A stretch of DNA of 39,209 bases. Origin: Acidimicrobiaceae bacterium. GTDB lineage: Bacteria > Actinomycetota > Acidimicrobiia > Acidimicrobiales > Acidimicrobiaceae. A program made the position numbers and the translations under genes. Shown one piece after another: positions 4,164 to 39,209 of the stretch. A model generated the notes under the pieces. It did not search any database, was not told the DNA's origin, and was given only the letters and a program-made list of their open reading frames with translations. Position 1 is the first letter of the stretch. Each line of letters begins with the position of its first letter. The stretch spans positions 1-39,209 of the forward strand of contig JABEUN010000088.1 in assembly GCA_013044385.1 (NCBI GenBank), read 5' to 3'.

Positions 4164-4435
4164 CTAATTCCGCCTTCCTATCGTACTGATCAGTGGTATC
4201 GATCTAGAACTACGTCAGGATCTAACCGTAGACTAACCACGTTGTGGCGAATGCGGAAGTTTGGTTTCAATCTGACCACCAAATCGGCCGGTGGTTCGGT
4301 GCCGTCGTCATTTGCCACCTCCAACTAGACACGAGACCTCCAAAACAGAGTCTCAAAGCTATTCGGCCAGACACTCCAGTTAAAATGCTCCGAGCGTTGC
4401 CAGTTCCATGTCACACTCGGATCCAAAGCTAGGTC

Positions 4436-34863: not shown

Positions 34864-36255
34864 CTACCACTCCAGATTTAGACGCTCCTCCTCGAATAAG
34901 CTCACGCACGCATCTACGACATTGGAGTCATACTGACGGCCCCTACTCTCACTCAATTCGGCAAGAGCGAGATCCACAACCTTGGCTGGCCGATAAGGGC
35001 GGTGCGAAGTCATTGCGTCAACAGTGTCGGCGACGGCGATGATTCGCGATCCGAGAAGAATCTCCTCGCCGCGAATGCCATTTGGGTAGCCACTTCCGTC
35101 CATACGCTCGTGGTGCTGCTCAACCATGTCGGCCACAGGACTAGGGAAAGCTACCCCACGGATGATGTCGGCACCCGTGGAGGCGTGAAGTTTAATCAGC
35201 TCCCAAGATGGAAGGTTCAGCTGTCCAGGACGTGCGAGGATCTCTGCTGGTATGGCAATCTTGCCGATGTCGTGTATCCGTGCTGCGAACTCAATGCCTT
35301 CAACAACGCTGTCATCGAGACCAATCTCGGCCGCTATTGCAGAAGCTATCGTCGCTACCCGATCTTGATGTCCGTCGGTATATGGATCCCGGAACTCCAA
35401 TGCGGAGGCGAGAGCACCGACGACGGAACGGGTTAGCTTCTTGTGCGCTTCCTCGACTCGCTTACGCTCCGTTATGTCGACAGCAACTAGACCGACACCA
35501 ACAACGTTGGCATCCACGCGGACCGGGTAGTAGCTAGTAAGCCAGTGATGAGTCCCACCTAGTCCAGACGGGCTCGCCGCAGCCAACTCCGCTCCAACTA
35601 TCGCTTCCTCTGTGTCTCTTACCTGTCGGAACAGTGGTTCGATTTGCGGCCAGAGAGTAGGCACCACCTCTCCTGCCAAACGTCCGACCTGTTCATGCGC
35701 CTGGAAACCACTGAATGTACCCAGCATCTGGTTGAGCCGGAGAACCCTGAAATCTTGATCAAGCACGCCAAACCCGATGGGTGCGCTGTCTTGAAGCGTC
35801 TGTAACAATGCAAGGGCTTCAGTTGCGGAACGCTCTGATTTGCGCAGTTGCTCTGCTGTCTCTGCATGTAAAGTCATGTCTCGGCCGACTAACAGAATTC
35901 CGATCAAGTCATCATCTGGTCCGAGTACCGGCGACAGCACTTCTGACACCGCAAGGTGCGTTCCATCTTTCCTGATTCGTGCGGTCAATGAGTAGCGGAC
36001 CGTTTCGCCGGCGCTGACTCGGGACAGGGCGTTAGGAAGCTCCTCTTTCCGGTCAAATGGAACCAGGGCAGCTAAGTCGTGGCCCACCATTTCTCCAGCC
36101 CTGTAGCCCAGAAGACGTTCGGCAGAACCACCCCATGTAGTCACGATCCCCAGCGCGTTCAGCTCGAGAATGTAGTCGTCCGAGGAGCCGACGAGCGCTG
36201 CCAGGATCCGTCCTGGTCCGACCTCGGACTCACCGGGCGACGAGATCGCATCCAT
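34864..36255 (-). CDS. PAS-PAS-HD-GYP phosphodiesterase
   Basis: The 463-residue protein has two PAS domains (about 15-130 and 150-265), each ending in a VDITERK-type linker or equivalent. An HD-GYP domain (about 270-455) follows. Catalytic and metal residues are intact: HD at 328-329 in RIHDIGKIAIP, EQHHERMDGSGYP with the GYP at 389-391, and AVADTVDAMTSHRPYR. It should hydrolyse cyclic di-GMP, or possibly another cyclic dinucleotide, in response to a signal sensed by PAS. There are no membrane helices, so sensing is cytoplasmic. No GGDEF cyclase gene is nearby. A perfect 7-bp palindrome sits 45 bp before the start. Confidence 0.9.
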   Translation of the reverse strand: MDAISSPGESEVGPGRILAALVGSSDDYILELNALGIVTTWGGSAERLLGYRAGEMVGHDLAALVPFDRKEELPNALSRVSAGETVRYSLTARIRKDGTHLAVSEVLSPVLGPDDDLIGILLVGRDMTLHAETAEQLRKSERSATEALALLQTLQDSAPIGFGVLDQDFRVLRLNQMLGTFSGFQAHEQVGRLAGEVVPTLWPQIEPLFRQVRDTEEAIVGAELAAASPSGLGGTHHWLTSYYPVRVDANVVGVGLVAVDITERKRVEEAHKKLTRSVVGALASALEFRDPYTDGHQDRVATIASAIAAEIGLDDSVVEGIEFAARIHDIGKIAIPAEILARPGQLNLPSWELIKLHASTGADIIRGVAFPSPVADMVEQHHERMDGSGYPNGIRGEEILLGSRIIAVADTVDAMTSHRPYRPAKVVDLALAELSESRGRQYDSNVVDACVSLFEEERLNLEW

Positions 36256-36299
36256 TCAGTCCCCCATTCCGGCAATACCGACCAATTGCAACTCCTATA

Positions 36300-36316
36300 T
36301 CGGCATCTCATGCCGA
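36300..36316. promoter_or_regulatory. Perfect 7-bp palindrome upstream of the HD-GYP gene
   Basis: TCGGCAT and ATGCCGA flank CTC. The site is 45-61 bp upstream of the phosphodiesterase start on the minus strand, in a position suited to an operator. No regulator is identified. Confidence 0.35.
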
Positions 36317-37288
36317 AGGCCCGCCGAAATTCCCAGCGTCGGGCCCTACATGGCAAGACTAGCGGGCTGTTTAGGCCACTAGTTGTCGTCCAAACAACGA
36401 CATGACATGACACTGTTCGGGTCAGCACCGGAAAAAGGAGCATTGATGGCGTACCTTTGAGCGCCTGTAAGGGTCAGACAGTTGACGAGATGTCAATGGA
36501 TTGCATAATCTCCGCCGGTTATTCCACCGAGATCGGAACTCGATCGCAATGGTGCGAAAATGCGCTGACTAGTTGCCCATCTACGTCTCGCTGGATGCCA
36601 TACACCGATGTGCTGAAGTAGATTCCAACTCCGCTTTACATGAGTCGGCTTATGCCACCGTAGGGTTCTCACACAGAGGAGACCTGCCACTTGCAGCGCT
36701 CACTTCCAAGCGCCTATCGCACAGGTGGCATAACGGGAAGGGACAATCCTAGAGCGGCGAAGATTAGCTACTCCATAAAGGTTCGACCGATTCCCGAGCC
36801 AAGAGCCACTCCGAAAGGCGAGAAGAAAACTCAGATGTTCGGAACTCCTCGAACTACAAATGTTTGTAGGTTACCAAACTACGCAGGTCTCTTTGGAAGG
36901 ATGATACCGCAAGCTGTCCTACTAGGTCCCCCAATTGCGTGACAATGGCCATGTGCCAACCGACGCCATGGAGTTTGCGGTGGAAAATATGGATCGACCA
37001 ACTCTGCGCTGCAGGTCTTGCTGACTTTTGAAGCGGCACTACTGCAGTCGTGAAACAGAAAGCGCCACTGCATTACCCCAGGTCGAGGTCAACGTTGCGG
37101 CGCGAATATGTGAGTAATCTACACCGAACCGTTGGGTAGGTATCTCGGCCGAGAAAGTGCGACCTGAGCAACGCTTAGGAGCCAATGTGGCGTATTGAGT
37201 TAACCTCTAAAAGATCGCCACCGGAGAATTGGCAGTCAAAGGGGTCGGACCAAACCCCATTTTAGGGACCACCTTCTTACCGGTTACC

Positions 37289-37309
37289 GACTAGAACGCA
37301 GTTCTAGTC
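37289..37309. repeat. Perfect 9-bp hairpin in the gene-poor stretch
   Basis: GACTAGAAC (37289-37297) and GTTCTAGTC (37301-37309) form a perfect stem around GCA, followed by ATATTTC. It is terminator-like or a protein-binding palindrome, but no gene ends nearby. Confidence 0.4.
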
Positions 37310-37517
37310 ATATTTCATGTGCAGTATCCCCTTGGGACCGGAGAGATCCAGTTTCCGCAGATCCGGCAGTAGCCTAAGGCACTATCGACGGGACCGAATA
37401 GCGGCTCAGAAATTCAATACTGCACATGTTCCATAAGGCAAGTTGAGGAGCTCCGAGAAAACTGATCCACCCATAATGTAAGTCGTTCCTCCGGAATAGA
37501 TATGGAGGAAAACAACC

Positions 37518-37785
37518 ATGAAGTCCAAGCGACACACCCCAGAGCAGGTGATCAGAAAGCTTGCCGAGGGCGACAAGATGTTGAACGAAGGGTCATCTGT
37601 TGCGGAAGTTGCTCGCAGCCTCGGCGTGACGGAGACCACCTGGCACCGCTGGAAGAACCAATACGGCGGGATGAAGACCAACGATGCCAAGAAGCTCAAA
37701 GAGCTCGAGATGGTGAACCGCAAACTCAAGACAATCGTTGCCGACCAGGCACTTGACATCTTGATGCTCAAGGAGATCGCCTCGG
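37518..37785 (+). pseudogene. IS3-family orfA (helix-turn-helix), 3' end disrupted
   Basis: The product starts MKSKRHTPEQVIRKLAEGDK. It has a helix-turn-helix (SVAEVARSLGVTETTWHRWKNQYGG) and a leucine-zipper-like tail ending ADQALDILMLKEIAS, the usual orfA end of the IS2/IS407-like IS3 elements. After the codon at 37782-37784 the family sequence (typically GN/GK plus an aromatic and stop) is replaced by IS110 right-end DNA, so the open frame runs on artificially to 37823. GGAGG (37504-37508) lies nine bases before the ATG. Without orfB the transposase cannot be made, so the element is inactive. Confidence 0.85.
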
Positions 37786-37798
37786 ACGCTCCTATAGA

Positions 37799-38848
37799 TC
37801 AGACGCTTTGCAGATTCTCATAGTCTGAGCGGAGGGCTCGAAGCACCTCTCTGATCAGGTAACGCTTCAGACACCTAATCACCTCCATTTTTGATAGACC
37901 TTCAGCAGTTCGACGCTCCATGTACGCTTTGGTCTTTGTGCAGTAGCGCAGGCGGACAATGACTGCGACATGAAGAGCGCTGTTGGCATCTCGTACGCCA
38001 CCCCGATGGAGTCGATAGCGTGTGACATTACCAGAAGACGCCGGGATGGGCGCTACGCCGCAGAGTCGTGCAAAAGATGCGTCGGACATGAGACGCTCTG
38101 GATTATCCCCAATAGTGACGAGCAACGCCGCTACGGTTCCCACCCCCATCCCAAAGACACTAAGGGTCTTCGGCGCAACCTGGGTGACGAGGGTTTCCAG
38201 GTGAGCGTCAAGCGCGTCGATTTCTTCTGAGAGATGGTGAATGCGCTGTGCAAGATAGTTACATGCCAATTTCGTACCTTGTAGTGGATCACAAGGATCG
38301 GCTCCTCGTACCCGAAAAGACCGACACGTGGCAATGAGCTGTTGGGTGTTTCTCTGCAGTAGTTGATCCCGGAGTTCACCGGGAGCAGTGATCACCATGG
38401 ATTTGAGCGTGTTTGTTGCGGCAATCTTGGCTTTGAGAGCTCCCTGACGCGTGACCCGCAGCATTCTGATGCATTCAATCTGTGACGAACCGAGCTTGGG
38501 AACAATTACGGCCTGGCCACTCATGACCGATCGTGCTGCTGCCTCGGCATCGATGGGATCTGATTTGCCAAGCCTTCGTCGTCCCTGCCTGTTGGGACGT
38601 GGTACTTCAAGCACCTTGGTTCCATTCCCATGCAGTCGTCGTGTCAGCTCCGCACCATAGGACCCTGTTCCTTCAACGCCAACTGCTTCCACGTCGCCGA
38701 AGCCCTCAAGCCACTGCTGTAGCTCATTAATGCCTTGCTTGGTCGTTGGGAACTCCTCTGTTCCAAGCAACCTGCCAGTCTCATCGAGCGCCGCAGCGCA
38801 ATGGAACTCTTTATCGGTATCGACACCTCCAATAACGCAACTGTGCAT
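37799..38848 (-). CDS. IS110-family transposase (DEDD recombinase)
   Basis: The 349-residue recombinase is full length. The N-terminal RuvC-like domain has D10 (IGGVDTDKEFH), E59 (GVEGTGSYG), and D97 and D100 (KSDPIDAEAA), the DEDD catalytic set. The C-terminal Transposase_20 domain has FGMGVGTVAALL, then FARLCGVAPIPASSGN with the candidate catalytic serines S271/S272 and YRLHRGGVRDANSALH. IS110 enzymes join donor and target DNA guided by a structured bridge RNA. AAGGAGG (minus strand; 38854-38860) precedes the ATG by five bases. All motifs are intact, so this copy could be active. Confidence 0.93.
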   Translation of the reverse strand: MHSCVIGGVDTDKEFHCAAALDETGRLLGTEEFPTTKQGINELQQWLEGFGDVEAVGVEGTGSYGAELTRRLHGNGTKVLEVPRPNRQGRRRLGKSDPIDAEAAARSVMSGQAVIVPKLGSSQIECIRMLRVTRQGALKAKIAATNTLKSMVITAPGELRDQLLQRNTQQLIATCRSFRVRGADPCDPLQGTKLACNYLAQRIHHLSEEIDALDAHLETLVTQVAPKTLSVFGMGVGTVAALLVTIGDNPERLMSDASFARLCGVAPIPASSGNVTRYRLHRGGVRDANSALHVAVIVRLRYCTKTKAYMERRTAEGLSKMEVIRCLKRYLIREVLRALRSDYENLQSV

Positions 38849-38879
38849 ATGGGCCTCCTTAATTCAAATGTTCTTGCCC

Positions 38880-39085
38880 GCCTCCGGGTCGGTGGACAGT
38901 CCATATATGAGACGTTGCGCTCAGGCTCCTATTAAGTCACACACAAGCTGGTAACAGGCACGTACTTCTCGTTGACTCGGGCTGACTGACAGGTCCTCAC
39001 GAAAGACATCTCCTACCGGAGAGTCCGGAAACTACTGAGTCAAGTCAGCTCGAGCCAACGAAGACCACACTAGATCTTTCACGTT
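38880..39085 (-). ncRNA. Candidate IS110 bridge RNA
   Basis: The left end upstream of the recombinase can fold, on the minus strand, into a long stem: 39039-39060 pairs with 38970-38990 through about 19 base pairs, one bulge, one G-U and one A-C mismatch. Directly after its 5' arm is AGTAGTTTCC (39027-39036). This equals the ten bases of IS3 DNA just outside the element (39095-39104), as expected for a target guide. Further 3', ATAGGAGC (38925-38932) equals eight bases of the element's right end (37788-37795), as expected for a donor guide. The order target loop then donor loop matches known bridge RNAs. Exact ends are approximate. Confidence 0.65.
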
Positions 39086-39096
39086 TTCAGTTATGG

Positions 39097-39209
39097 AAAC
39101 TACTAACCCCGAACCGCCGTCGCAGCGCCGTTTCATTGCTGCAGCGTCGGTTTGGGGTCTCCGAACGACGGGCCTGTCGTGTTACCGGGCAGTCACGCTC
39201 TACCCAGCG
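39097..39209 (+). pseudogene. IS3-family orfB, 5' fragment continuing beyond the window
   Basis: The frame reads KLLTPNRRRSAVSLLQRR then FGVSERRACRVTGQSRSTQ, which is the conserved N-terminus of IS3 orfB transposases just after the orfA/orfB junction. It directly follows the IS110 left end. The DDE catalytic core would lie to the right of the window. It is separated from its orfA by the IS110 insertion. Confidence 0.85.

Follow-up and report, generated by a model that had tools for sequence, protein, structure and literature searches.

The window analysed here, a 39,209-nt stretch of an Acidimicrobiaceae bacterium genome (GCA_013044385.1, contig JABEUN010000088.1, positions 1–39,209), contains an IS110-family element on the minus strand (37785–39094). 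Its boundaries follow from comparison with an uninterrupted IS3 copy on a second contig of this genome (G000:C69) and from a right end that is conserved in relatives. The tnp gene (37799–38848, minus strand) encodes a 349-aa DEDD/serine recombinase (Pfam DEDD_Tnp_IS110, 1.3e-17; Transposase_20, 6.9e-12), and thus has the DEDD transposase and C-terminal Transposase_20 domain that characterize the IS110 group. The reading frame is open and all predicted catalytic residues are present (D10, E59, D97, D100, and S272; positions by alignment to IS621 8wt6, with the residues of IS621 named as in PMC11208158). Upstream of tnp lies a 246-nt non-coding left end that holds both loops of a predicted bridge RNA, the target-binding loop (TBL) and the donor-binding loop (DBL). 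The first seven nucleotides of the left end, ATAACTG (39088–39094, minus strand), form the right donor (RD), and the right end forms the left donor, TATAGGAGC-G-TC (37785–37796, minus strand).

The element interrupts an IS3-family orfA (37518–37784, plus strand; HTH_Tnp_1, 2.4e-14). The interrupted frame resumes at 39095 with GGA AAC TAC TAA, so that the joined frame reads ..EIASGNY. On the minus strand, the right target is CGAGGCGATC (37775–37784), and the left target together with the core CC occupies 39095–39104. The orfA of G000:C69, 79% identical in protein to the interrupted one, is uninterrupted at this point (..GAGATCGCCTCGGGAAACTACTAACCCCGAACC..) and serves as the empty site. Compared with it, the insertion is scarless, with one core copy at each end (37785–37786 and 39095–39096) whose letters are unequal: read on the minus strand, the left-end copy is CC and the right-end copy TC. 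The contig stops inside the IS3 element, 115 bases past the insertion (39095–39209), as expected for repeated DNA.

The right boundary deserves comment. A first reading, in which the element ended ..GGAGC and the target began GTCC, was ruled out by the joined reading frames and the empty site, and the right end that the first-pass annotation had placed at 37788 moves 3 nt outward to 37785 on the same grounds. Four joined frames put GTC inside the element: ASGNY, ECPPKM after an upstream orfA-like stretch, CWD-NAPMESFF, and DSYD-NALAE. The window genome has a single copy of this IS and one 46% identical paralogue (L002; G000:C74, 107–1313, minus strand). The paralogue has its own target loop, whose left target guide, CACTCAGAT, resembles its flank, CATTCAGAC.

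A predicted two-loop bridge RNA in the left end

A search of positions 36000–39209 against Rfam gave no family match at E values up to 1, and we therefore built two covariance models from 31 relatives (recombinases 45–61% identical), aligned without the window; calibration was short and the E-values are rough. Model R1 places the TBL at 38961–39069 on the minus strand (45.6 bits, rough E 2.6e-8), the next best match in the 39-kb window scoring 8.7 bits. Model R2 places the DBL at 38887–38949 on the same strand (33.8 bits, rough E 1.5e-5; next match 12.8 bits). The first-pass annotation had proposed a bridge RNA with target and donor guides in this left end and suggested a covariance model as a check. 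Both loops were recovered in the expected order, the fold of the donor loop being the weaker part of the result.

The TBL is built on a long stem, its 5' arm at 39039–39062 pairing with its 3' arm at 38968–38990, as indicated by the fold, the model, and covariation in relatives. The near-perfect stem noticed earlier at 38970–38990 and 39039–39060 is thus real and slightly longer. The 104-nt target-loop fold has a predicted energy of −47.2 kcal/mol (z −4.2), which none of 200 shuffles equalled; over the full 246-nt left end the signal is weaker (z −1.9; 6/200 shuffles as stable). Among the 31 relatives, 18 of the 22 TBL pairs have changed in both partners, and 87% of the cells are paired compared with 66% in shuffles (0/500 as good), slid versions falling far below too. 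Hence the fold conserved among relatives that had been asked of the first proposal is present for the target loop. For the DBL, 4/10 pairs changed on both sides; its letters are well conserved in the 31 relatives (mean column identity 70%), and the 49-nt donor stretch of the window, folded alone, is no more stable than shuffles (168/200 as stable).

Two of the four guides in the window match perfectly. The left target guide (LTG), AGUAGUUUCC (39027–39036, minus strand), agrees at 10/10 positions with the flank at 39095–39104, its final two letters lying on the core; the plus-strand letters GGAAACTACT stand at both places, as first reported. The window flank fits its own LTG at 9/9 and the guides of other elements at no more than 7/9. 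Similarly, the left donor guide (LDG), AUAGGAGC (38925–38932, minus strand), agrees at 8/8 with the right end (37788–37795), where the plus-strand letters GCTCCTAT recur as claimed. Both left guides are complementary to the bottom strand of their partners, the left target and the left donor. Counted at any place and on either strand, the 10-mer turned up in 15 of 20,000 Markov-shuffled left ends and the 8-mer in 77 of 20,000. At the fixed places assigned by the models, simple arithmetic gives chances of about 4^-10 and 4^-8, respectively.

The right-hand guides, which the first-pass annotation had not named and whose partners would be the top strands of the right target and right donor, are poorer. 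The right target guide (RTG), UUUCGUGAGGAC (38993–39004, minus strand), takes its register from relatives, with GA on the core TC and the last C as the handshake base for the donor G. It matches its own target at 1/5 bases beyond the core, somewhat as in L009, and down from an apparent 4 once GTC is assigned to the element. The right donor guide (RDG), CAUAUAUGG (38901–38909, minus strand), matches the RD ATAACTG at 5/7 and the target core CC at 2/2; the 44 other RDGs reach 1–3/7 on the window RD. A second target guide had tentatively been sought in the 7-nt match AGGAGAT, which is real as letters (39008–39014 and 37771–37777). This candidate was rejected: AGGAGAU is the 3' arm of the TBL apical hairpin UCUCC-GGUA-GGAGA (39005–39026, minus strand; seen in the fold, with a short hairpin conserved in relatives), and its target partner is some 10 nt away from the junction.

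Guide specificity and targets among relatives

Of 83 elements (the window and 82 loci), 53 had their guides read by hand; the remaining 30 comprised truncated or interrupted elements, elements of a different build, near-copies, and elements left unattempted. The hand readings were taken after the flanks had been seen, and guides called by the model are the cleaner test. That second set comprised 42 further loci outside the model training, with 44 loops and 35 distinct guides tested; two loops were dropped for short upstream DNA (L084 and L116), and for 16 of the 44 no right end was found. The LTG scan covered the whole upstream stretch because the automatic left ends were wrong in rows such as L008, L010, L016, L017, L019, L030, L034, and L035, and guides sharing more than 5/9 letters were excluded from the cross comparisons in both sets.

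The guides in relatives fit their own flanks much better than those of others. Among hand-read LTGs, 30 of 40 distinct guides matched their own upstream flank at 8–9/9, compared with 18 of 1386 cross comparisons. Three reached 7/9 (L018, L034, and L052) and seven failed at 5–6/9 (L003, L004, L013, L036, L037, L051, and L071), including L003, a 61% relative from the same genus as the window with no LTG-like flank (6/9). In the model-called set, 13 of 35 LTGs matched their own flank at 8–9/9 versus 17 of 1098 cross comparisons; 22 of the 35 stayed below 8/9. The match between RTG and right target beyond the core averaged 3.48/5 for own pairs and 1.48 for cross pairs in the hand-read set (42 elements, NTC right ends only), and 3.32/5 and 1.27 in the model-called set (25 elements), with 0/10,000 permutations as high in either case. 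Likewise, RDGs agreed with their own RD at 5.4/7 and with others at 4.3/7 (0/20,000 permutations as high). Together with the empty site in the same genome, the relatives bear out the bridge RNA first proposed here, including the strand that encodes it, its position within the left end, and its LTG and LDG.

Some relatives are built differently. In L004 (2145–2359), and likewise in L005, L055, L115, and L123, two tandem target-binding loops precede one donor loop, and the same layout occurs in L088 (2646–2912, minus strand). In the L004 type, the LTG of the first loop, GAAGTTTCC, equals the flank and the second loop reads CCAATTTCC. This accounts for the failed LTG test of L004, since it is the first of its two loops that carries the flank-matching guide; the same holds in L115. 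Tandem target loops are perhaps a dual-target bridge RNA, perhaps a duplication.

An IS3 or integrase-core transposase reading frame extends up to the junction in 16 of the 53 elements; the seven queries behind this count were themselves taken from seven of the 16, and several loci have one flank only or a short flank. On this count, we reject the idea that the branch as a whole targets IS3 genes. In a tree of 99 rows, the window falls in an 11-row clade (support 100/97), nine members of which have IS3 orfA or orfB on at least one flank (L084 counted). Within this clade, the guide of L003 suggests IS3 targeting but its left flank has no IS3 gene, L011 was outside the flank test, L059 has an IS3 gene only on its left flank, and L013, whose LTG fits poorly, has the opposite orientation. 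Elements of other lineages (L029, L030, L038, L044, and L045) are found at D-N codons within the integrase domain. Some of the relatives therefore have guides that match transposase codons of the IS3 or integrase-core type (GN-F/Y-stop of orfA or, in other lineages, D-N of the integrase domain) and are apparently RNA-guided transposons landing in other transposons. The window offers a compact natural example: a single genome shows the guides for target and donor, the two ends of the element, the gene it interrupts, and the empty site. At L013, a single IS3-like element appears to be interrupted twice by different IS110 elements (2278–2372 and 4246–4343), once where orfA meets orfB and once at the GDALD codons of orfB.

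Core letters and handshake bases

We use the name ISEc21-like, coined in this analysis, for the branch to which the window element belongs by tnp similarity, common RNA architecture, and the tree. The right-end trinucleotide in this branch is GTC in 27, ATC in 17, and TTC in 1 of 46 elements, so that 45/46 have (G/A/T)TC; the remaining element, L067, has GAC, and no right end was found in 7 of 53. The conserved trinucleotide belongs to the element, as follows from the joined frames of the interrupted transposase genes and from the empty site. On the target side, base 9 is C in 41/45, and base 8 is A in 34, C in 8, G in 2, and T in 1. Base 9 is therefore usually C in both target and element; at base 8, the right end has T and most targets have A, C, or G.

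The RDG letter for base 8 follows the target, forming a Watson–Crick pair in 41/45 and a G-U pair in 2/45, and the next RDG letter, the handshake base of the DBL, pairs with target base 7 in 35/45; 0/20,000 permutations were as high in either case. For these counts of target bases 7 and 8, L003 and L004 were dropped, and left ends were set by the LTG match or, in L013, L036, L037, L051, and L071, by hand, so neither count is independent of the LTG. The last RTG letter pairs with donor base 7 in 41/42 hand-read and 25/25 model-called elements. The RTG letter for base 8 and the T of the element hardly vary, and their pairing is a fit, not covariation.

In IS621, a CT core common to target and donor is paired by the guides (PMC11208160 and PMC11208158), and handshake guides are described for positions 6–7 (PMC11208158). 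A shared CT core of this type is absent from the window element (CC left, TC right), whose two core copies agree at base 9 and disagree at base 8; base 8 in the ISEc21-like branch instead behaves like positions 6–7 of IS621. The difference looks like a trait of the branch, because it is also seen in the right end of ISEc21.

We tentatively suggest, as a possibility we would not yet favour, that the core is split in this branch: only base 9 (C) would be common, the right guides would fit the recombined DNA and not the substrates, and the RNA itself would drive insertion forward. The RTG would pair with the TC of the element plus donor base 7, and the RDG with the NC of the target and then with the base at target position 7. 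Both loops would be mismatched at base 8 before the exchange, with no mismatch afterwards. If this holds, the bridge RNA would tell an occupied from an empty site, and simple base swaps could test the direction of bridge recombination.

Proposed mechanism, alternatives, and known systems

The left end of the window element, an ISEc21-like IS110 element, very probably encodes a minus-strand two-loop bridge RNA that guides insertion into the 3' end of IS3 orfA. At the sequence level, the conserved target-loop fold, the guide matches, the empty site, and the own-flank specificity across relatives all point this way. The first loop would pair with both target halves at the end of orfA (codons S-G-N-Y-stop) and the second loop with the joined element ends. 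The recombinase would then cut both DNAs beside the core and exchange strands, giving insertion in one position and orientation, with RTG and RDG fitting the recombined product as an extended handshake. By analogy with IS621 and ISEc21, the RNA would be transcribed from an excised circle, and binding, cleavage, and exchange would follow the course known from these elements.

Alternatives differ in how much of this they dispute. Lone matches of 7–8 nt are expected now and then, as the shuffled left ends illustrate for the 8-mer, and one could suppose that no guide RNA exists and that the matches arose by chance or remain from a DNA duplication; this we consider extremely improbable, given models that never saw the window, compensatory pairs, and own-flank specificity in two sets. 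A subtler proposal, the seekRNA model, would have the target loop alone guide, the donor-loop matches being conserved protein sites and not RNA guides. It draws on the report that a 58-nt RNA was enough for ISEc21 movement (PMC11187229), its restriction to the target part being deduced from its length, and on the near invariance of LDG and left donor, hence their little covariation. We think it unlikely, as the RDG agrees with its own RD above others (5.4 vs 4.3 of 7) and also with the target core, L084 combines an RD of AATGATT with the RDG TTTCATTGG, the donor-loop letters are conserved in 31 relatives, and donor guiding was shown for IS621 (PMC11208160). Because ISEc21 moved with 58 nt, shorter than its 74-nt seekRNA, the donor loop may nevertheless be dispensable, by analogy with that element.

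The third alternative keeps the bridge RNA at the time of insertion and supposes that the window copy is now inactive, with an open recombinase frame, an unrecognisable junction promoter, and two poor guides out of four. A promoter at the RE-LE circle junction could not be recognised in the window: the best candidate has 6/12 sigma-70 consensus letters, a score equalled or bettered by 99/100 shuffles, and the consensus may not fit the host. Among relatives, TTGAC stands at the −35 place of the right end in 42/43, and the joined ends have at least 9/12 letters in 31/43. The weak RTG (1/5) and RDG (5/7) and the single copy in the genome also speak for inactivity. On the other side, 12/43 relatives likewise have only 7–8/12 letters, the frame is open with every predicted catalytic residue kept, LTG and LDG are perfect, and L084 (61% identical) has the same altered right end, TGATCTATAGG. 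The window copy may be a fossil or may use another promoter, and on balance we see inactivity as plausible without leaning towards it.

The predicted two-loop bridge RNA of the window element has close parallels. ISEc21, an IS110-family element of E. coli, is RNA-guided in vivo and was traced to IS3 genes (Siddiquee et al. 2024, PMC11187229). Its recombinase is 44% identical to the window tnp over 347 aa, both models match its left-end RNA (43.2 and 21.8 bits), its right end is ..GTC, and its RTG and RDG letters, read by eye, have the pattern of the window branch. Like the window element, it inserts in IS3-family transposase genes without duplication of target bases, but it targets codons that flank the second D of the DDE domain in IS3 (PMC11187229), in contrast to the end of orfA in the window. 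ISEc21 is experimentally active, and the sections consulted describe it with target-matching bases only (PMC11187229).

IS621 and ISCro4 share with the window element a two-loop left-end bridge RNA, in which each loop has a stem, a left guide, a hairpin, and a right guide (Durrant 2024, PMC11208160; Hiraizumi 2024, PMC11208158), and a DEDD plus Ser recombinase, with weak sequence matches of 3.3e-6 (IS621 8wt6) and 0.00089 (ISCro4 9t56). The RDG of the window branch aligns with the RD without the flipped-out bases of IS621. IS4321/IS5075 of the IS1111 group, on Tn21-family ends, are also DEDD elements that insert in other transposons, as indicated by a title cited in PMC11187229. In the IS1111 members studied, the RNA lies downstream of tnp, with the target-matching parts in another order (PMC11187229).

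The window element is thus a clear new example of bridge-RNA elements, not a new kind of system. IS3 targeting as such is not a new discovery, as it was already known for ISEc21 (PMC11187229). What is added over ISEc21 is the orfA-end target and the split-core guide pattern. The titles and abstract openings of the open-licence PMC matches listed make no mention of split cores, of two target loops, of IS110 elements at the ends of IS3 orfA, or of an IS110 element within a bridge-RNA gene.

The last of these is a side finding of possibly greater interest. At four loci in four genomes (L012, about 1111–2395; L043; L048; and L076), a different IS110-family element lies inside the left donor guide of a host IS110; the inserted copy in L012 matches DEDD_Tnp_IS110 at 7.1e-27. 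The layout is GTGACCT(G/C)ATAG / CGCCTCT..AACAAGT / CAGGAGC, and L011 and L025 have the 3' junction only. The inserted element's own left end resembles both halves of the site, with CAGGCTCCT and CTCATAG in L048 and GCTCCT and TGATAG in L012; in L043 and L076, GCTCCT fits and the second half differs at one position. When 396 genomes were searched by pattern, three further cases came up in two of them (L149–L151), every one at such a site, although both search patterns include the ATAG of the target and the result is no independent count. Judged from these sequences, the inserted element may itself be of the bridge-RNA kind and direct its insertion to the guide segments of other such elements, as an RNA-guided parasite. 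Near the same donor-guide position, L042 (1344–2501) carries an inserted transposase reading frame that we take to be IS5-like.
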